From assembly GCF_013283195.1 (NCBI RefSeq), contig NZ_JABEKT010000001.1, forward strand, positions 656,795 to 720,794: a DNA stretch of 64,000 nucleotides, given 5' to 3'. Under the pieces are notes generated by a model, which saw only the letters and a program-made list of their open reading frames with translations, did no database searches and was not told where the DNA came from. The DNA is from Ensifer adhaerens (GTDB taxonomy: Bacteria > Pseudomonadota > Alphaproteobacteria > Rhizobiales > Rhizobiaceae). This document shows positions 12,034 to 19,033 of this stretch, piece by piece (the stretch's first letter is position 1; every line of letters begins with the position of its first letter). A program made the position numbers and the translations under genes.

Positions 12034-12843
12034 TTAAACCGAAGGCAGCATGTTGCCGATTGCCTGCTTCATTTTAGCAATGTCTTCCTCGCGCGAAAGA
12101 CGATGGTCGCCGTCGCGGATCAGCGTCATGACGACGTCGTCTGCGGGCAGATGCTCCATCAGTTTCAGCGCGTGCGTGTGGGGGACGTCGGGGTCGCGCA
12201 TGCCCTGGAGGATGTGAACCGGGCAGCCGGTGGTGATCGTGCCGACGAGCACGCGGTTGTCGCGGCCATCCTCGATCAGGGCGCGTGTATAGATGTTGGG
12301 CTCGGGGCTGTATTCGGACCGTTCCTCGAAATAGCCGCGCTCTTCAAGCGAGCGCTGCTCTGTCTCGGTCAGGTTCGGTTCGATGAGGTCGGCGGTAAAG
12401 TCGGGGGCGGGGGCGATCAGCACCAGCCCGGCGACGCGCTCGCCCATGCCACGCAGGCGCAGTTCCTGGATCAGCCTGAGGGCGATCCAGCCGCCCATCG
12501 ACGAGCCGATCAGGATCAGGCGTTGCTTGGGCGCCGCGTGTTCGACCACGGCAAGGCTCTCTTCCAGCCAACGCGAGATCGTTCCGTCCTTAAAGGCGCC
12601 GCCGGAGGCGCCATGGCCGGAATAGTCGAAGCGGATGCAGTCGGTTGCGCGGTCTCTCGCCAGGTGTTCGACCGCGACGGCCTTCGTGCCCGTCATGTCG
12701 GAGCGGTAACCGCCGAGCCACACGAGAGCCGGCCTTTCGGAAGGCTTTTGCGCACGCAGAATCCGCATGGCGATGCGGCGACGGGCGGCATCCTTGCCAA
12801 CCTCGATGAAGGTCGTTTCGGTTTCGGCTGTCGTCGTTTGCAT
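12034..12843 (-). CDS. Alpha/beta hydrolase (ABHD10-like serine hydrolase)
   Basis: A 269-residue protein with nucleophile elbow GSSMGGW (the Ser between Ser and Met), a preceding 'FDYSGHGASGGAF' oxyanion-region motif, a late Asp in 'MRDPDVPHTH' and His in 'RDGDHRLSRE'. This pattern is typical of ABHD10-type acyl thioesterases and carboxylesterases. There is no signal peptide, so it is probably cytoplasmic. The start at 12843 (ATG) has GGAGAG seven bases upstream; the longer frame to 12858 would use TTG and is less likely. It is divergent from infC. Confidence 0.83.
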   Translation of the reverse strand: MQTTTAETETTFIEVGKDAARRRIAMRILRAQKPSERPALVWLGGYRSDMTGTKAVAVEHLARDRATDCIRFDYSGHGASGGAFKDGTISRWLEESLAVVEHAAPKQRLILIGSSMGGWIALRLIQELRLRGMGERVAGLVLIAPAPDFTADLIEPNLTETEQRSLEERGYFEERSEYSPEPNIYTRALIEDGRDNRVLVGTITTGCPVHILQGMRDPDVPHTHALKLMEHLPADDVVMTLIRDGDHRLSREEDIAKMKQAIGNMLPSV

Positions 12844-13061
12844 CGCAATTCTCTCCAAATGCCCGGATTGGCGGCGAATTTCTTTCTAAAACAGATTCGT
12901 CTTGGCTTCGACAGGTGGTGATTTTCCCTGCAAGCCATGCTATTGACTCTCGCGTCGCAATTCACACATTGCCGTCGGCGGCAGATTGAAGCATTTCGGC
13001 CAAGGCCGCGCCGACTATTAATTGAACCGCATTTCGGAAACAGCTCGAGGAGAGTACGACC

Positions 13062-13598
13062 ATTCGCAGACCGTTCAAAACGGACGCCCCCGTCAAGGAG
13101 GGACCGCGCTCAAACAAGGAAATCCGGGTACCCCGGGTTCAGCTTATCGATGCCGAAGGCCAGAATATCGGTGCCGTCCCGATCGACCAGGCGCTCCGCA
13201 TGGCGGAAGAGGCCGGTCTTGATCTGGTTGAGATCGCACCGAACTCCGAACCGCCGGTGTGCAAGATCCTCGATCTCGGCAAGCTGAAATACGCCAACCA
13301 GAAGAAGGCGGCCGAAGCGCGCAAGAAGCAGAAGATCGTCGAGATCAAAGAGATCAAGATGCGTCCCAACATCGACACGCATGACTATGAAGTGAAGATG
13401 CGGGCGATGAATCGTTTCTTCGAAGAAGGCGACAAGGTCAAGGTGACCCTGAAGTTCCGCGGTCGCGAAATGGCGCACCAGGAACTCGGCATGAAGCTCC
13501 TGCTTCAGGTCAAGGACGACACCCAGACGATTGCCAAGGTCGAAGCCGAGCCGAAGCTCGAAGGCCGCCAGATGATGATGGTCCTCGCTCCGCGTTGA
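13062..13598 (+). CDS. infC: Translation initiation factor IF-3, with ATT start codon
   Basis: The 178-residue factor binds the 30S subunit and checks initiator tRNA and start-codon pairing. The reading frame can be followed upstream of the first in-frame ATG (13200) through '[19 protein letters not shown]' and '[19 protein letters not shown]', the conserved IF-3 N-terminal domain, so the true start must lie upstream. The only suitable codon is ATT at 13062, with GAGGAGAG at proper spacing. Rare AUU starts are a hallmark of infC and permit autoregulation, since IF-3 rejects non-standard starts. Unusually, rpmI and rplT do not follow directly. A terminator lies downstream. Confidence 0.95.
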
Positions 13599-13642
13599 CC
13601 GCCGCTGTCGGACGGATCGTCCGTGCACCGTATCAGGTAGGA

Positions 13643-13665
13643 AGCCGCCCTTGGGGCGGCTTTTT
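13643..13665 (+). terminator. Terminator after infC
   Basis: AGCCGCCC, TTG loop, GGGCGGCT and then a T-tract form a classic intrinsic terminator, so infC is transcribed separately from rpmI-rplT. Confidence 0.85.
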
Positions 13666-13724
13666 GCGTTTGAGCGCATCCCGATGTCCCAAACGATCTC
13701 CAGTGGCGTCATTCTCTTCGCCTC

Positions 13725-13765
13725 GCTGACAGAATGCTGACAACCGGCCTCAGCGAGCTGTCAGC
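13725..13765 (+). promoter_or_regulatory. GCTGACA direct repeats with 11-bp period, candidate response-regulator site
   Basis: GCTGACA occurs at 13725-13731 and again at 13736-13742, exactly 11 bp apart, with an inverted copy TGTCAGC at 13759-13765. Tandem heptamers with 11-bp period are typical OmpR/PhoB-family sites. It lies about 50-90 bp upstream of the first Asp-rich protein gene, near a response-regulator gene of that family. Confidence 0.5.
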
Positions 13766-13814
13766 GGCGGCATGGCAATCTGGCGTCATCGAATTCAGGA
13801 GAAGGACGAAAATC

Positions 13815-14399
13815 ATGTACGTCACGCTTCGAAAAGCTTTGCTTGTGTCCACCATGGGCGTTTGCGGCCTCGTCTCGGCGCCTGTCGGGTTCTCGCTGGT
13901 GGCCACCGGTCCGGCGCATCCATTTGCCATGTCCGCACTTGCCAGCGGCGACGACGACAACAGCGGTCGTGGCGGCAGTGATGATCGTGGCGGCGACGAC
14001 CGCAGCAGCGAAGATCGCAGCCACGACGATCGGGACGATCACGGCGGCAACAGCGGCCGCGGCAGCGATCATGATGACAACGACAACGACAACGATGATG
14101 ACAACGATCATCGCGGTCGCCACGGCCATGACAATGCCAATGACGATGATGCGGACGATGATCGCGACAATGACCGCAATGACCGTGACGAAGTCACACT
14201 CAGCGTTTCCGAGGACAGCCTGCGCGGACTGCGCGACGGCTCATTGGTTGCAGTCGACAATCTCGGCCGTGCGCTTGAGGTGGAAGTCGAGTTCGAACAC
14301 GGTCAGCGCGTGGTGACGGTCAAGCCGCATGGTGGCGATGCCCGCCGCAATCCGGGTCCCATTACCAGCGTTTCGATCGTGCCGGCTTCGGCTCGCTGA
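13815..14399 (+). CDS. Secreted Asp/Asn/Gly/His-rich low-complexity protein
   Basis: A 194-residue protein of unknown function. The start at 13815 follows AGGAGAAGGA. Residues 1-43 look like a signal peptide ending in AMSALA. Residues about 44-130 are almost entirely Asp, Gly, Ser, Asn, Arg and His, encoded by GAY/AAY-rich trinucleotide repeats; this strongly acidic tract could bind divalent cations. Residues about 130-194 form a compact, non-repetitive tail ('EVTLSVSEDSLRGLRDGSLV', later 'HGQRVVTVKPHGG'). The tract resembles that of the next gene's product (both contain DDDNSG-type runs), so the two are probably related or act together. Candidate OmpR-type repeats lie upstream. Confidence 0.72.
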   Translation: MYVTLRKALLVSTMGVCGLVSAPVGFSLVATGPAHPFAMSALASGDDDNSGRGGSDDRGGDDRSSEDRSHDDRDDHGGNSGRGSDHDDNDNDNDDDNDHRGRHGHDNANDDDADDDRDNDRNDRDEVTLSVSEDSLRGLRDGSLVAVDNLGRALEVEVEFEHGQRVVTVKPHGGDARRNPGPITSVSIVPASAR

Positions 14400-14496
14400 T
14401 CTGAACAACGAATGTCCGGTGCATCCGCCCCCGTAGTGCACCGGAATGATGGGCTCCTTCCGCTTAACGCCCGCCCAGCGGATTGGCCCAAGGAAC

Positions 14497-14543
14497 GCAT
14501 GACCCCCTGCGCCGGAACCGACGCAGGGGGTCATGCGCTTTTC
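14497..14543 (+). terminator. Very strong hairpin terminator between the two Asp-rich protein genes
   Basis: A perfect 15-bp inverted repeat (arms 14497-14511 and 14522-14536, GCATGACCCCCTGCG) with a 10-base loop is followed by GCTTTTCC. It separates the first Asp-rich gene from the downstream PepSY/two-component operon. Confidence 0.75.
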
Positions 14544-14560
14544 CATGTCTTGCCCACGCA

Positions 14561-14607
14561 TCTGGCCTCTTGCGCTCGGCAGCGCAGGGGATCAGTCTGA
14601 GGCCAGA
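14561..14607. repeat. Nested inverted repeat in the leader of the PepSY/two-component operon
   Basis: TCTGGCCTC (14561-14569) pairs with GAGGCCAGA (14599-14607), and inside it TGCGCT pairs with AGCGCA around a CGGC loop. With the terminator just upstream, this structure fills the middle of the 331-bp gap 14400-14730. It may be part of the leader RNA or a protein-binding site; no function is known. Confidence 0.5.
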
Positions 14608-14730
14608 CGAGCGAGGGGATTTTACAAGCGCATTGGGGGAATGCGCCTTCGGAATGCGGGCCGCCGGACGATGTCGCGAAGGACGCGGCGTTTTTCGCAA
14701 AGGTTTGAAAATGTGGAACTGGACGAAACC

Positions 14731-15258
14731 ATGCCGATGACGCGACGAAATCTGATTGCGATGGCCTGCTGCTCGTTGCTGCTGTCGCTTGCGCCGCAGG
14801 TGGCAGGCATTTCCGCCTTTGCCAAGGACGGTCGCGATGATGACGACAGCAGCGGCAGCGGCAGCAGTGGCAGCAGCGGCGGTAGCGGGTCGAGCGGGTC
14901 CAGCGGCCACGGCGGCGATGATTCCGACGACGACCGCAGCGGTCGCGGCGGCGGCGATGACGACGACAACAGCGGGCCTGGCGGCGGTCACGATGACGAT
15001 GACGATGACGACAACTCCGGCCGCGGCCGGCGCAGCGATCAGGAACGGGCTCGCGACGGCGTCGAGAAGGGGCGCATCCTGGCGTTGAAAGATGTGCTGC
15101 GGCTCGTCGACGAGGACAAATACGGCGCAGTCATCGCTGTGGATCTGAGAAACAATGGCGAAGTCTACCGGCTGCGCACGCGCGACCGGCAGGGCACCAT
15201 CCGAAATCTGCGTATCAATGCGCGCACGGGAAAATTCATGAACATATTCGGATTCTGA
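14731..15258 (+). CDS. Secreted Asp/Ser/Gly-rich protein with C-terminal PepSY domain
   Basis: The 175-residue protein has a signal peptide (residues 1-31, ending ISAFA), a Asp/Ser/Gly-rich tract (about 32-105) and a PepSY-type domain (about 112-175) running from 'GRILALKDVLRLVDEDKYGA' to 'YRLRTRDRQGTIRNLRINAR'. PepSY domains often occur in periplasmic inhibitors or modulators encoded next to two-component systems. It lies seven bases upstream of the response-regulator gene and is surely co-transcribed with it. By analogy (inference) it may bind a metal or polycation through the acidic tract and modulate the sensor kinase. The start at 14731 has only a weak ribosome site; ATG 14737 is possible. 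Confidence 0.82.
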   Translation: MPMTRRNLIAMACCSLLLSLAPQVAGISAFAKDGRDDDDSSGSGSSGSSGGSGSSGSSGHGGDDSDDDRSGRGGGDDDDNSGPGGGHDDDDDDDNSGRGRRSDQERARDGVEKGRILALKDVLRLVDEDKYGAVIAVDLRNNGEVYRLRTRDRQGTIRNLRINARTGKFMNIFGF

Positions 15259-15265
15259 GGACAGA

Positions 15266-15931
15266 ATGCGCATTCTTCTGGCGGAGGACGATCGCAACAT
15301 CGCCACCCATGTGGTGACGAAGCTGGAGGCCGAAGGTTACGGCGTCGATACGCTGGCCAATGGTCCCGACGTGTGGGAGCAGGGTGAAAACGGCACCTAT
15401 GCCGCGATCATTCTCGATCTGGGCCTGCCGGGCATGGACGGCCTGTCGATCCTCAAGCGCTGGCGCAAGGCAGGGCTGGAAACGCCGGTGCTGGTGCTGA
15501 CGGCGCGCGGCTCCTGGATGGAGCGGGTCGACGGTTTCGACGCCGGGGCCGACGACTACCTGCCGAAGCCGTTTCGGGCCGAAGAACTGGTCGCGAGGTT
15601 GCGCGCGCTGCTCAGACGCGCCGGTCCGCGACTGCAATCCGTGCGCTCCGCCGGACGCTTCACCCTTGATGAAACGACGCGCCGGGTCACGTTCGACGGT
15701 CAGGTTCTGGAGTTGAGCCCGCTCGAGTACCGCATGATCGCGCTGTTCATGGAGCGCAAGGGCCAGGTTTTGACGCAGCTCGAACTGGCAAGTCACGTGC
15801 AGGGTCGAGAGGACGACGCGGCCAAGAATGCTGTCGAGGCGATGATTGCGCGGCTGCGCAAGAAGACCGAGAGTTCGGCGATCGAGACCCGGCGGGGCTT
15901 CGGTTACCTGTTGCCGGACGACGGCAGATGA
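15266..15931 (+). CDS. OmpR/PhoP-family response regulator
   Basis: A 221-residue DNA-binding response regulator. The receiver domain (1-120) has the acidic pair 'LAEDD', phosphoacceptor Asp51 in 'ILDLGLPGMDG', the Thr switch in 'VLVLTARGSW', and KPF. The C-terminal winged helix (about 130-221) includes 'LSPLEYRMIALFMERKGQVL' and 'VEAMIARLRKK', as in PhoB/OmpR. It is the middle gene of the operon PepSY protein - regulator - kinase, with a four-base ATGA overlap with the kinase. The likely site is the GCTGACA repeat near 13725 (inference). It is not FeuP, which I recall with a clearly different N-terminus. Confidence 0.94.
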   Translation: MRILLAEDDRNIATHVVTKLEAEGYGVDTLANGPDVWEQGENGTYAAIILDLGLPGMDGLSILKRWRKAGLETPVLVLTARGSWMERVDGFDAGADDYLPKPFRAEELVARLRALLRRAGPRLQSVRSAGRFTLDETTRRVTFDGQVLELSPLEYRMIALFMERKGQVLTQLELASHVQGREDDAAKNAVEAMIARLRKKTESSAIETRRGFGYLLPDDGR

Positions 15932-17295
15932 TCCGTTCGCTTCGGCTGCGACTGGCGATCGGCGCGCTGATTGCCGTCGGCGTGGTGCTGCTGGTGGTCT
16001 GGTTCTCGCTTTCTCGCCTTTTTACCGATTATGTCGTCGGCCGCTATCGCGCGGAAATGATCACAACCGTCGATACGATTGCCGCCCAGGTGGTCGTCAG
16101 GGACGGCGAACTCGCTCTGCCGCGCGAGCCGGCGGATCCACGCTTTTCGCTGCCGGCCGGCGGTCGTTACTGGCAGCTCACGCCGAAAGCGGGCACGCCG
16201 ATCCGATCTCGTTCCCTTTGGGATACCGTCATCGATCCCAAGACCCCCTCCGCCGGTCATTACAAAGACTTTGTGGAACTCGAAGGTCCTGACGGCGCGC
16301 CGATGCTTGTTCATACCCAGACGCTGGCTCTCGGCGATGGCCCCGACGCCGAACGCTTTTCCGTTCAGGCCGGATTTGGTCGCCAGGAGCTCGACGATGC
16401 GCTCGAGTCATTTCACGGGCGGATGCGGCTGATGCTGCTTGCGACCGCCGCCGTGCTTGCCGGCGCGGCCTTCCTGCAGGGCGCACTCGGTCTGGCGCCG
16501 CTGCGAAAACTGCGTGAGCGGGCAGCGCTCGTGCGTGCCGGCGGTGAAAAGGACTTCGGTTCGGCCGGCCCCAGCGAGGTCGGACCCGTTGTCAACGAGA
16601 TCAACCTGCTGCTGGCCGAGCGCGAGCAGGCCGTCGAGCGCGCCCGCGCTCGCGCCAGCGATCTCGCCCATGGCCTGAAGACGCCGTTGACCGTGCTTGC
16701 CCAGCTTGCCGAAAGCCTGCCCGACAACGAACGCCGGCTGGCCTTGCAGCAGGTCGATCTGGTACGCCAGCGTGCCGACCGGCAACTGCAGGCCGCCCGC
16801 ATGGGCGTCGAGCGCATGGCGACCACATCGGTCGCCAGCATGGCGGGCAAGCTCGTCAGCGTGTTGCGGCCGGTCACCGCCGAGCGTGGCATCGCCTGGG
16901 ACGTGACGATCGATCCTGGCCTGTCTCTCGATATGGATCCGGCCGATCTGGCGGAATGCCTTGGCAACCTGCTCGACAATGCCGTCAAATGGGCGCGCTC
17001 GCGCATCCGCGTTTCTGCCGCGCGCAACGACGATCGATTGCACATCGTCGTCGGCGACGACGGACCGGGCATCGCCGACGGCGATCGCGAGAGGGTGATG
17101 CAGCGGGGCGGCCGCGTCTTGGATGGCGAGGCTGGCCAGGTGCCCGGCACCGGGCTCGGCCTTGCCATCAGCGCGGATATCGCCGATGCCTATGGCGCGA
17201 CGCTGACACTCGGGCAGTCGCCGCTCGGCGGGCTGGAGGCGGTCCTGACCTTTGAAACGGTGGGCCGGCGCAAGCGTCCGCGCGATCCGGTTTGA
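15928..17295 (+). CDS. Sensor histidine kinase (PhoQ-like)
   Basis: A 455-residue inner-membrane kinase. Transmembrane segments lie near residues 10-30 and 170-190, enclosing a periplasmic sensor domain of about 140 residues. The H-box 'DLAHGLKTPLTVLAQ' carries the phosphorylated His near residue 251, followed by the N-box 'NLLDNAVKWA' and G-boxes 'GDDGPGI' and 'GTGLGLAI'. Its layout resembles PhoQ, which senses divalent cations and cationic peptides. Placement beside secreted, strongly acidic proteins suggests a cation-related signal, but that is inference. The start overlaps the regulator stop (ATGA). Confidence 0.92.
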   Translation: MIRSLRLRLAIGALIAVGVVLLVVWFSLSRLFTDYVVGRYRAEMITTVDTIAAQVVVRDGELALPREPADPRFSLPAGGRYWQLTPKAGTPIRSRSLWDTVIDPKTPSAGHYKDFVELEGPDGAPMLVHTQTLALGDGPDAERFSVQAGFGRQELDDALESFHGRMRLMLLATAAVLAGAAFLQGALGLAPLRKLRERAALVRAGGEKDFGSAGPSEVGPVVNEINLLLAEREQAVERARARASDLAHGLKTPLTVLAQLAESLPDNERRLALQQVDLVRQRADRQLQAARMGVERMATTSVASMAGKLVSVLRPVTAERGIAWDVTIDPGLSLDMDPADLAECLGNLLDNAVKWARSRIRVSAARNDDRLHIVVGDDGPGIADGDRERVMQRGGRVLDGEAGQVPGTGLGLAISADIADAYGATLTLGQSPLGGLEAVLTFETVGRRKRPRDPV

Positions 17296-17335
17296 TGCGG
17301 CCTGTCGCTTCTGCAGCGCTTCTTCGATTCCGCAG

Positions 17336-17364
17336 TTGCGCTTTTGGGGATGTCCGGGTATAAG
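17336..17364 (+). promoter_or_regulatory. Promoter of rpmI-rplT
   Basis: TTGCGC at 17336-17341, a 17-bp spacer and TATAAG at 17359-17364 form a good sigma-70-type promoter about 100 bp upstream of rpmI. It gives the ribosomal genes a start of their own, independent of infC. Confidence 0.6.
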
Positions 17365-17466
17365 CCCCCGTCCGAACGGTCCGGCAGGGCATGCCGTGGC
17401 CGTTCTTAACGCTGGAAATGGACCTCGTCTGTCCGTTTCGAATTCTTAAGAAAATGGAGTAGCAAA

Positions 17467-17670
17467 ATGCCCAAGATGAAGACGAAATCGTCTGCCAAGA
17501 AGCGGTTCAAGATCACCGCTACCGGCAAGGTTCGTGCAGCTGCTGCTGGCAAGCGCCACGGCATGATCAAGCGTTCCAACAAGTTCATCCGCGACGCACG
17601 TGGAACCATGGTTCTCGCGGAGCCCGATGGCAAGAAGGTCATCAAGAACTACCTGCCCAACGGTCTCTAA
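17467..17670 (+). CDS. rpmI: 50S ribosomal protein L35
   Basis: A 67-residue basic ribosomal protein with the classic L35 N-terminus '[20 protein letters not shown]' and '[11 protein letters not shown]'. It sits 39 bases upstream of rplT, as in nearly all bacteria. ATGGAG at 17453-17458 gives the ribosome site. In most genomes infC directly precedes it; here it is 3.9 kb away. Confidence 0.98.
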
Positions 17671-17709
17671 GACTTTCAGGCATTTTGGACACGTTAAGGA
17701 GATCATGAC

Positions 17710-18114
17710 ATGGCACGTGTAAAACGCGGCGTAACCGCTCACGCCAAGCACAAGAAGACACTCAAGGCAGCCAAGGGCTTCTACGGCCGCCGCAAGAACA
17801 CCATCCGCGCTGCAAAGGCTGCGGTTGATCGTTCCAAGCAGTTCGCTTACCGCGACCGCAAGGTCAACAAGCGCAACTTCCGCGCTCTCTGGATCCAGCG
17901 CATCAACGCTGCCGTCCGCGAATTCGGCCTGACCTACGGCCGCTTCATCGACGGCCTGAACAAGGCTGGCATCGAAGTCGACCGCAAGGTTCTGTCCGAC
18001 ATGGCTATCCATGAGCCGGCAGCATTCGGCGCCCTCGTCGAAGCTTCCAAGAAGGCGCTTGCCTACCTCAAGGAAGCCGGTACGACCAACGAGTTTGAAA
18101 GCGCTGTTCGTTAA
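17710..18114 (+). CDS. rplT: 50S ribosomal protein L20
   Basis: The 134-residue protein is an early assembly factor of the 50S subunit and, in some bacteria, a translational repressor of its own operon. It begins '[20 protein letters not shown]' and has '[20 protein letters not shown]' and '[20 protein letters not shown]', typical of L20 across its full length. The ribosome site AAGGAG lies eight bases before ATG. A strong terminator follows. Confidence 0.98.
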
Positions 18115-18155
18115 GCCAGCGTTTTCCCAAAACCGTTCTTGAATTTTGTTGGGAA

Positions 18156-18187
18156 ACCCGCGCTGGCAGGGCTAGCGCGGGTTTTTC
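18156..18187 (+). terminator. Terminator after rplT
   Basis: ACCCGCGCT and AGCGCGGGT form a 9-bp GC-rich stem followed by a T-tract (TTTTCTTATTTT). Confidence 0.85.
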
Positions 18188-18205
18188 TTATTTTGCGAGA
18201 CGAAA

Positions 18206-19033
18206 GTGCACGACGATCGAAGAGGGCCGCTTGCGGTTCCGCAGCTTGACGACGACGACATGGCGGCTCTGCTGGCAGCACTTGCCGGCGGATCGTCCCG
18301 TGTCGAGCACTGCCAGCTCAAGAAACGTGCGGTCTGGATCAAGCGTTACCAGCGCCTCGGTGCCCGTATCGGCCAACGCCTGCAGTGGCTTGCCTCGCGT
18401 CTGACCGGCGTTACCATTCTTCGCCCGGCGCCCATTCTCGATCCGCAGGGCATGCTCGACCGCGAGGTCCGGCAGATCAACGCTTTCTCCGCCGCCGGCT
18501 TCAAGACGCCGCAAATCCTCTATCGCGGCACGACGGCGCTGGTGCTTTCTCATCTGGGCCTTCCAGTCAGCAAACAAATGGGCGCATTGCGCGACACGGA
18601 TGCCGACGGGCACGACGCGCTCCTGGTGCGCTGCGCCGCCGAGCTCGGCCGTCTGCATGCAGCAGGGCTTTGCCATGGCCGCCCGCATCCCCGCGATTTC
18701 ATCATCGACGACGGCGAGTTCTGCTTCCTCGATTTCGAGGAGGAGCCAGCGGCGGTCATGCCGCTTGCCACCGCTCAGGCGCGCGACGTCTGGCTGTTGT
18801 TCCTGCAGATCGCAAGCCGCGCGCTGAAGGCCGAAACGCCGGATCGGGCCTTTGCCGCCTGGAAACTTGCCGCTCCGGCCGAGACAGCCGTCGCTCTCTC
18901 GCAGATCATGCCATTTTTCACGCGACTGCTTCCGCTGGCGCGCTTCCTCCTGCGTATCCAGAACGGCCAGGATCTCGTGCGCTTTGTGGCGGCCACGGAC
19001 TACCTGGCAGGCGCGACGCAATCACAATCCTGA
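18206..19033 (+). CDS. Small protein-kinase-like protein (LPS kinase/InaA-BUD32 type)
   Basis: A 275-residue cytoplasmic protein with a minimal kinase fold. The catalytic loop is 'HGRPHPRDF' at 157-165 and the metal-binding Asp is D176 in 'FCFLDFEEEP', the arrangement found in WaaP/InaA-type lipopolysaccharide kinases and BUD32. Upstream, 'RAVWIKRYQRLGARIGQRLQ' could hold the ATP-binding Lys, and 'REVRQINAFSAAGFKTPQIL' matches the InaA-family pattern. The substrate is unknown; phosphorylation of lipid A core or a protein are the main options. The start is GTG at 18206 with a weak ribosome site; ATG 18260 is an alternative. It lies just after the rplT terminator. Confidence 0.72.
   Translation: MHDDRRGPLAVPQLDDDDMAALLAALAGGSSRVEHCQLKKRAVWIKRYQRLGARIGQRLQWLASRLTGVTILRPAPILDPQGMLDREVRQINAFSAAGFKTPQILYRGTTALVLSHLGLPVSKQMGALRDTDADGHDALLVRCAAELGRLHAAGLCHGRPHPRDFIIDDGEFCFLDFEEEPAAVMPLATAQARDVWLLFLQIASRALKAETPDRAFAAWKLAAPAETAVALSQIMPFFTRLLPLARFLLRIQNGQDLVRFVAATDYLAGATQSQS

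Follow-up and report, generated by a model that had tools for sequence, protein, structure and literature searches.

A probable self-regulated PepSY two-component operon with an acidic exported first gene in Ensifer and other Rhizobiaceae

In Vibrio cholerae, the exported PepSY protein DbfQ is encoded upstream of dbfRS, binds the sensor domain of DbfS with a dissociation constant of 30 nM and shifts DbfS to its phosphatase state; the dbfQRS operon is positively autoregulated and, according to the same paper, published in December 2025, modules of this type are widespread (PMC12714742). Here, we describe a four-gene module located between infC and rpmI in a 64,000-nucleotide stretch of an Ensifer adhaerens (Ensifer/Sinorhizobium) genome (contig NZ_JABEKT010000001.1, positions 656,795 to 720,794; hereafter, the window), which encodes an acidic exported protein (asp1), an exported PepSY protein (pep2), an OmpR-family response regulator and a membrane sensor histidine kinase. 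We consider it likely that the four genes are a DbfQRS-type operon that senses the envelope and regulates itself, with asp1 as an additional gene at its head; the small exported PepSY protein probably restrains the membrane kinase, and the regulator would switch on the acidic exported protein. Systems like the pep2-regulator-kinase core are known; what looks new is the acidic first gene, the stem-loop that follows it and the shared operator. Below, handles starting with G denote genomes and those starting with L denote loci.

The likeness to DbfQRS lies in gene order and description, not in direct sequence comparison: in both cases, a small exported PepSY protein is encoded directly upstream of, and beside, a regulator and a membrane kinase, and the operator in the window would suggest autoregulation like that described for dbfQRS (PMC12714742). 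The window module differs from DbfQRS in having an acidic exported first gene, a stem-loop and a PepSY protein with a long low-complexity linker. The preliminary description of this DNA called the module undescribed, which holds for the four-gene operon, as far as full-text searches of open-licence papers go, one of them covering 20 of 132 listed titles, which returned nothing on such a module in rhizobia, but not for the three-gene core. Its suggestion that the PepSY protein tunes the kinase gains support from the conserved neighborhood within and outside the genus and from the DbfQRS analogy (PMC12714742). FeuNPQ of Sinorhizobium meliloti, from the same bacterial group, is similar in that a negative modulator is predicted to be cotranscribed with the regulator-kinase pair, and the candidate FeuP site, TTCA-N7-TTCA, has an 11-base repeat like that of the window operator (PMC3616915, PMC5929573). 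In Pseudomonas aeruginosa, the PepSY proteins PA2658 and PA2659 are found beside the regulator and kinase BqsRS/CarSR (PMC12714742). UipA, an exported PepSY protein likewise of acidic character, binds uranyl via its negatively charged face; it contains tandem PepSY domains, is membrane-anchored and bears the acidic face within the fold, whereas the acidity in the window lies in a low-complexity tract (PMC8963506).

Alignment of the DNA upstream of asp1 from 16 loci yields one standout block, CTGACA-N5-CTGACA-N6-CTCAGC-N3-CTGTCAG, and the exact pair CTGACA-N5-CTGACA is present in all 16, including the relocated copy L045. The first pair also stands at the expected place before asp1 in 14 of the 14 module-bearing genomes of the genus. 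In 26 of 27 loci, 21 to 27 of the 27 fixed positions are matched no more than 190 bases upstream of the first gene, and in 22 of the 27 the operator starts 87-94 bases before the start codon, some of the first-gene starts having been set by hand; L071, one base out of register, scores 14 of 27 positions. Further downstream, T, G, C and A are conserved at footprint columns 47, 48, 50 and 51, and a likely -10 hexamer begins 11 bases past the last half-site, a spacing that would fit activation and, together with the conserved operator, positive autoregulation as in dbfQRS. We know of no published target site for PepSY modules in Rhizobiaceae, although no literature search was aimed at the site.

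A longer operator pattern, with up to 3 mismatches allowed, occurs at 59 distinct places in 50 of 247 genomes of the family, and its reversed form at none in the same 247 genomes. A PepSY gene (profile E < 1e-10) and a regulator gene are direct neighbors at 50 of the 59 places (24 among the first 30 loci, the window and G191, both analyzed as longer stretches, and 24 among the other 29); in L181, 131 bases separate the two. At many of the loci L136-L163, as well as in L181, the operator is located between the PepSY-regulator-kinase genes and a divergent gene for a small PepSY_2 protein (both of the two such proteins tested match PF13670), and in some of these loci this is followed by a frame that presumably encodes a cytochrome b561-like protein. 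Genome G200 combines a window-type module (L067) with two operator-like sites, L179 and L182, each of which precedes a gene for RTX calcium-binding nonapeptide repeats (PF00353; E = 2.8e-19 and 6.3e-23). The distances, 97 and about 99 bases, are close to the spacing seen at asp1; one site is free of mismatches and the other has three. The simplest reading is that the operator is common to the PepSY-regulator-kinase modules of Rhizobiaceae, would drive asp1 in the window lineage and could reach other acidic exported proteins.

Pep2 carries an N-terminus that, by eye, resembles a signal peptide, and its conserved portion is the PepSY domain that the preliminary description had assigned to its end. 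The full-length protein lacks any Pfam match at E <= 0.1; we accept the label because of the homologous C-termini, of which 26 of 31 aligned match PepSY and 3 match PepSY_2 at E <= 0.1, because a profile of pep2-type C-termini matches solved PepSY-type chains (9vy3, E = 1.4e-17; 4exr, 4e-6; 2gu3, 5.5e-4), and because the AlphaFold2 (AF2) model shows helices and four strands (mean predicted local distance difference test score (pLDDT) 79.7). The neighborhood is conserved as well: a PepSY-like C-terminus ends beside the regulator in all 17 loci of the genome_contigs set (L034-L050, partly from the same genomes as the G handles), a PepSY-like gene is found there in 11 of the 12 family loci L067-L078, and order-level relatives, for example, L023, L028, L030 and L033, likewise have a PepSY-like C-terminus next to the regulator.

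The kinase matches HATPase_c above and HisKA below the Pfam cut-off, and its H248 lies within the block HGLKTP, which is kept in at least 90% of 30 kinase orthologues. The name "PhoQ-like" proposed earlier survives to the extent that PhoQ is the nearest NCBIfam model; at 130.1 bits against a cut-off of 497, the identification as PhoQ was rejected, and the PhoP model likewise falls short (139.5 bits, cut-off 336). The nearest named relative of the kinase gene is from Ensifer oleiphilus (95%), and, in a tree of 48 kinases, midpoint-rooted and with several long branches flagged, the window kinase lies inside a clade of 30 Rhizobiaceae sequences (support 100/97). Outside this clade, on one of the flagged long branches, is the kinase of L002, a locus elsewhere in the same genome that we take to be feuNPQ-like; orthology of the window kinase with FeuQ was not found, and the candidate identification of the window module as feuNPQ was rejected. 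The RExxE motif is the iron motif of the ferrous-iron sensor BqsS/CarS; kinase residues 33-165, which cover the sensor region, contain none, and in this the window kinase differs from BqsS/CarS. A search for solved relatives of the sensor region found none. Separately, G001 and G007 carry a second PepSY-regulator-kinase module on another contig (contig C3; L029 and L031), with a weaker operator-like site (4 mismatches).

Several observations weigh against a PepSY-controlled module acting through its own operator. The C-terminus of the window's own pep2 matches Pfam PepSY at E = 0.035, which is below the cut-off, and in L075, where the regulator and kinase are present, no PepSY gene was found. 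Seven of the 59 pattern places (L153, L158, L159, L175, L179, L182 and L187) have no PepSY or regulator gene nearby. None of the 22 control loci has a PepSY-regulator pair, which speaks for the link, but these loci, read with 1.5-kb flanks, are half-pattern sites with one mismatch from a single genome and not matched random loci. Moreover, the pattern was built from window-type operators, and its co-occurrence with PepSY-regulator genes is not independent proof of binding because the two share ancestry. The exact pair occurs exactly twice in the window genome, at asp1 and before a gene that we read as TctC-like (L080, contig C12:1063826), so that the idea of a pair unique to asp1 was dropped. 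Sequence like this second site is present in all 16 genomes of the genus, two module-less ones included, with TTWAG between the halves in 15 and TCAAG in G005 (the gene context is that of the window genome's copy); because it is kept where the module is missing, it must, judging by this conservation, serve another regulator.

A hairpin lies between asp1 and pep2, which are 331 bases apart in the window, at each of 15 loci compared (best energies -26 to -42 kcal/mol), with different sequence in distant loci; none of 40 dinucleotide shuffles per locus reaches the native hairpin in 14 of the 15, and 1 of 40 does in L049. The stem-loop is likely a partial terminator or an RNA stabilizer, and the four genes would form one operon that yields more asp1 than signalling proteins. 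The long gap and the strong stem-loop, followed by TTTT, also suit two transcription units, asp1 with a promoter and a terminator of its own, and pep2 together with the regulator and the kinase. We regard this as possible, if on balance unlikely, given that asp1 adjoins pep2 even in the relocated copy L045 and that the alignment of 14 loci, which is poor across groups, shows no conserved operator-like block ahead of pep2.

From the gene order and its conservation, the operator and its tracking of PepSY-regulator genes, the stem-loop and the PepSY family, we infer the following course of binding, signal, direction of regulation, transcript shares and role of asp1 for the single self-regulated operon that we favor. 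The exported PepSY protein would bind the periplasmic sensor of the kinase and hold the kinase in the phosphatase state until an envelope signal relieves this hold. The phosphorylated regulator would then bind the four half-sites before asp1 and activate the extended -10 promoter. Many transcripts would end or get trimmed at the stem-loop after asp1; the acidic exported asp1 would be the main product, and a smaller share would read on into pep2, the regulator and the kinase. This read-through would produce more PepSY protein and reset the system.

Asp1 stands out by composition. Among the 58 window frames of at least 150 amino acids (selected longest-first without overlap, such that a longer antisense frame displaced that of pep2), its frame has the highest Asp fraction, 16.3% against a median of 6.5%, with 31 Asp in the 80 residues of the tract. 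Of the 24 loci (out of 27) for which charge was computed, 23 have a mature first protein that is net acidic (L076, L077 and L078 were left out; L043, L045 and L050 contain masked bases, and the L043 frame is unsure past the mask). The asp1 C-terminal domain aligns across 16 loci and is beta-rich and moderately confident in the AF2 model (mean pLDDT 79.9); asp1 has no Pfam family over the cut-off, its C-terminal domain shows weak TOBE-like matches in 4 of 16 loci, and the search for solved relatives of this domain gave none that is credible (best E 0.4). The first gene of the S. fredii/americanum group encodes a signal peptide and Gly/Thr/Ser/Ala repeats (three of the five loci contain masked bases), with no match to the asp1 C-terminal domain. 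Beside the two-component system, the PepSY gene is kept and the first protein is mostly acidic, but the Asp tracts vary. Other PepSY-regulator modules (L189-L191) also have Asp/Ser-rich linkers, L190 and L191 together with a divergent, exported-looking Asp/Ser-rich protein, which suggests that acidic outputs recur beyond the window module.

The preliminary description had proposed that the acidic proteins bind cations or cationic peptides. In its strong form, the acidic tracts would be the working part of the system: as a store of divalent cations or a sink for cationic peptides, they would set the kinase signal, a proposal compatible, for asp1, with the operon reading that we favor. The acidity of the first protein, the net charges of the window linkers (-21 over 80 residues in asp1 and -16 over 74 in pep2) and the binding of uranyl by the negatively charged face of UipA (PMC8963506) speak for such a role, and we gave it more weight because the two RTX calcium-binding repeat genes of G200 carry operator-like sites, a link that comes from one genome. 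However, charge density varies widely, with Gly/Thr/Glu repeats in place of Asp in the S. fredii group; neither asp1 nor pep2 contains a DxDxDG calcium loop; and the part of pep2 that is conserved is the PepSY domain. Nor is the pep2 linker constant: across 39 loci, with automatically set limits that are off in a few rows, L027, L029, L031 and L032 among them, it is net negative in 32, neutral in 3 and positive in 4, two of these being Arg-rich. We therefore rate the strong form as unlikely, and cation storage by Asp tracts as such would be possible at most because other linkers replace these tracts in some relatives.

An action of PhoB or another OmpR-family regulator in place of the local one at the operator appears improbable: the reverse strand, TTGTCAGCATTCTGTCAG, resembles what we take to be a Pho box (TGTCA recurring every 11 bases), and a similar pair is kept at the TctC-like promoter in module-less genomes, but two exact CTGACA-N5-CTGACA sites in the genome are few for a Pho regulon, and the four-half-site form is found at PepSY-regulator genes in 50 of 59 places.

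The module was initially described as inserted between infC and rpmI; this did not stand. Each of the 16 genomes of the genus has one infC match and also rplT, and 14 have the kinase at E <= 1e-100. In the two kinase-less genomes, G008 and G014, infC and rplT are separated by 563 and 633 bases, respectively. In G014 (L054, from about position 1379), DNA matching the window from 17160 directly follows the infC terminator and comprises about the last 45 kinase codons (protein match from residue 377, 63%); because this 3' end remains, G014 carries a deletion scar rather than a site that was always empty. The match of G008 to the window resumes at 17312, past the kinase stop codon. A second apparent loss, removing everything from asp1 to the sensor region, is that of L138 (G096), in which a C-terminal kinase remnant (1500-2016) directly follows the operator, far from infC.

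Across the family, the kinase is found at E <= 1e-80 in 16 of 247 genomes (9 of 109 genera). Among the 12 family loci outside the genus, 7, representing six genera, have the module between infC and rpmI, 2 have one of these flanks, and 3 have neither within the DNA retrieved. Both flanks are present in 14 of the 17 genome_contigs loci; L045 is located away from infC, L047 is a 4-kb contig with neither flank, and L048 has only rpmI, its contig ending upstream. Given these flanks, shared within and outside the genus, the infC-rpmI site is old; either it lost the module several times, or the module was exchanged there. On the same counts, and on the kinase remnant of G014, we rejected a recent insertion or a mobile element. 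Nor is the distance between the flanking genes fixed: in 83 of the 99 family genomes with infC, rplT is on the same contig and strand, and the gap is 335-608 bases in 43, 1.0-1.5 kb in 19, 1.7-2.6 kb in 11, 4.0-4.7 kb in 5 and longer in 3, with 2 out of order. The genes infC and rpmI-rplT thus are no fixed unit in Rhizobiaceae. A long infC-rpmI gap was rejected as a sign of the module, as those of G132, G106 and G118 (4.1-4.7 kb) and G063 (2.6 kb) hold other genes.

Table 1. Features of the infC-rpmI interval and its flanks (window coordinates)
Feature	Position	Strand	Remarks
infC (translation initiation factor IF-3)	13062..13598	+	ATT start; upstream neighbor, outside the module
Terminator-like hairpin 3' of infC	13642..13663	+	Read by eye: AAGCCGCCC-TTG-GGGCGGCTT, then T run
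Operator	13726..13765	+	Four half-sites (CTGACA, CTGACA, CTCAGC, TGTCAG), 11-base period; predicted regulator site
Likely extended -10 element, TGg-CAATCT	13773..13781	+	Conserved footprint columns; putative promoter role
asp1, exported, 194 aa	13815..14399	+	Asp/Gly/Arg/Asn/Ser tract and conserved beta-rich C-terminal domain of ~70 aa
Stem-loop between asp1 and pep2	14495..14538	+	-37.8 kcal/mol, TTTT after; putative role
pep2, exported, 175 aa	14731..15258	+	Asp/Gly/Ser linker followed by PepSY domain; putative modulator of the kinase
OmpR-family response regulator	15266..15931	+	Response_reg and Trans_reg_C, both over Pfam cut-off
Membrane sensor histidine kinase	15928..17295	+	Periplasmic sensor region of ~130 aa (limits by eye), HisKA, HATPase_c
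Promoter-like TTGCGC-N17-TATAAG before rpmI	17336..17364	+	Read by eye
rpmI (ribosomal protein L35)	17467..17670	+	Downstream neighbor
rplT	start 17710	+	After rpmI

The anatomy of the locus (Table 1) bears out the earlier account of about 3.9 kb between infC and rpmI, occupied by two exported Asp-rich proteins, an OmpR-family regulator and a kinase: 3868 bases separate the infC stop from the rpmI start, seven bases separate the end of pep2 from the regulator start, and the regulator and kinase genes overlap by four bases. The terminator after infC and the promoter before rpmI that were proposed at the same time are both visible by eye, but neither was listed by the program scan; a GC hairpin with a T run like that after infC is seen in most of the 16 aligned loci, and the sequence before rpmI is present also in the module-less locus L054. 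No Rfam element reaches the gathering score within 12800-18300. In L035, a 461-aa frame that by eye is transposase-like lies between infC and asp1 (about 1342-2727). Downstream of the module, between rplT and pheS, the frame at 18206-19033 has a borderline match to Kdo/WaaP lipopolysaccharide kinases (21.4 bits, cut-off 21.3) and is absent or shortened in some relatives.

More tentatively, we propose that a single operator code in Rhizobiaceae, four CTGACA-type half-sites at 11 bases, marks closed-loop PepSY modules that feed mainly their own promoter, and that, in the window lineage, the acidic output (asp1, with the RTX genes as extra targets in G200) and the PepSY brake together may buffer charged stressors of the envelope, for example, cationic peptides or a metal ion, be it calcium or another; as a whole, this proposal is doubtful. 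A mechanism for PepSY-controlled two-component systems was published for Vibrio cholerae in 2025 (PMC12714742). An operator that is shared and can be read in the DNA makes the regulons of PepSY modules directly searchable in nitrogen-fixing and plant-associated bacteria, and the acidic first gene provides a concrete output, such that the asp1 promoter could be used as a reporter for finding the signal.

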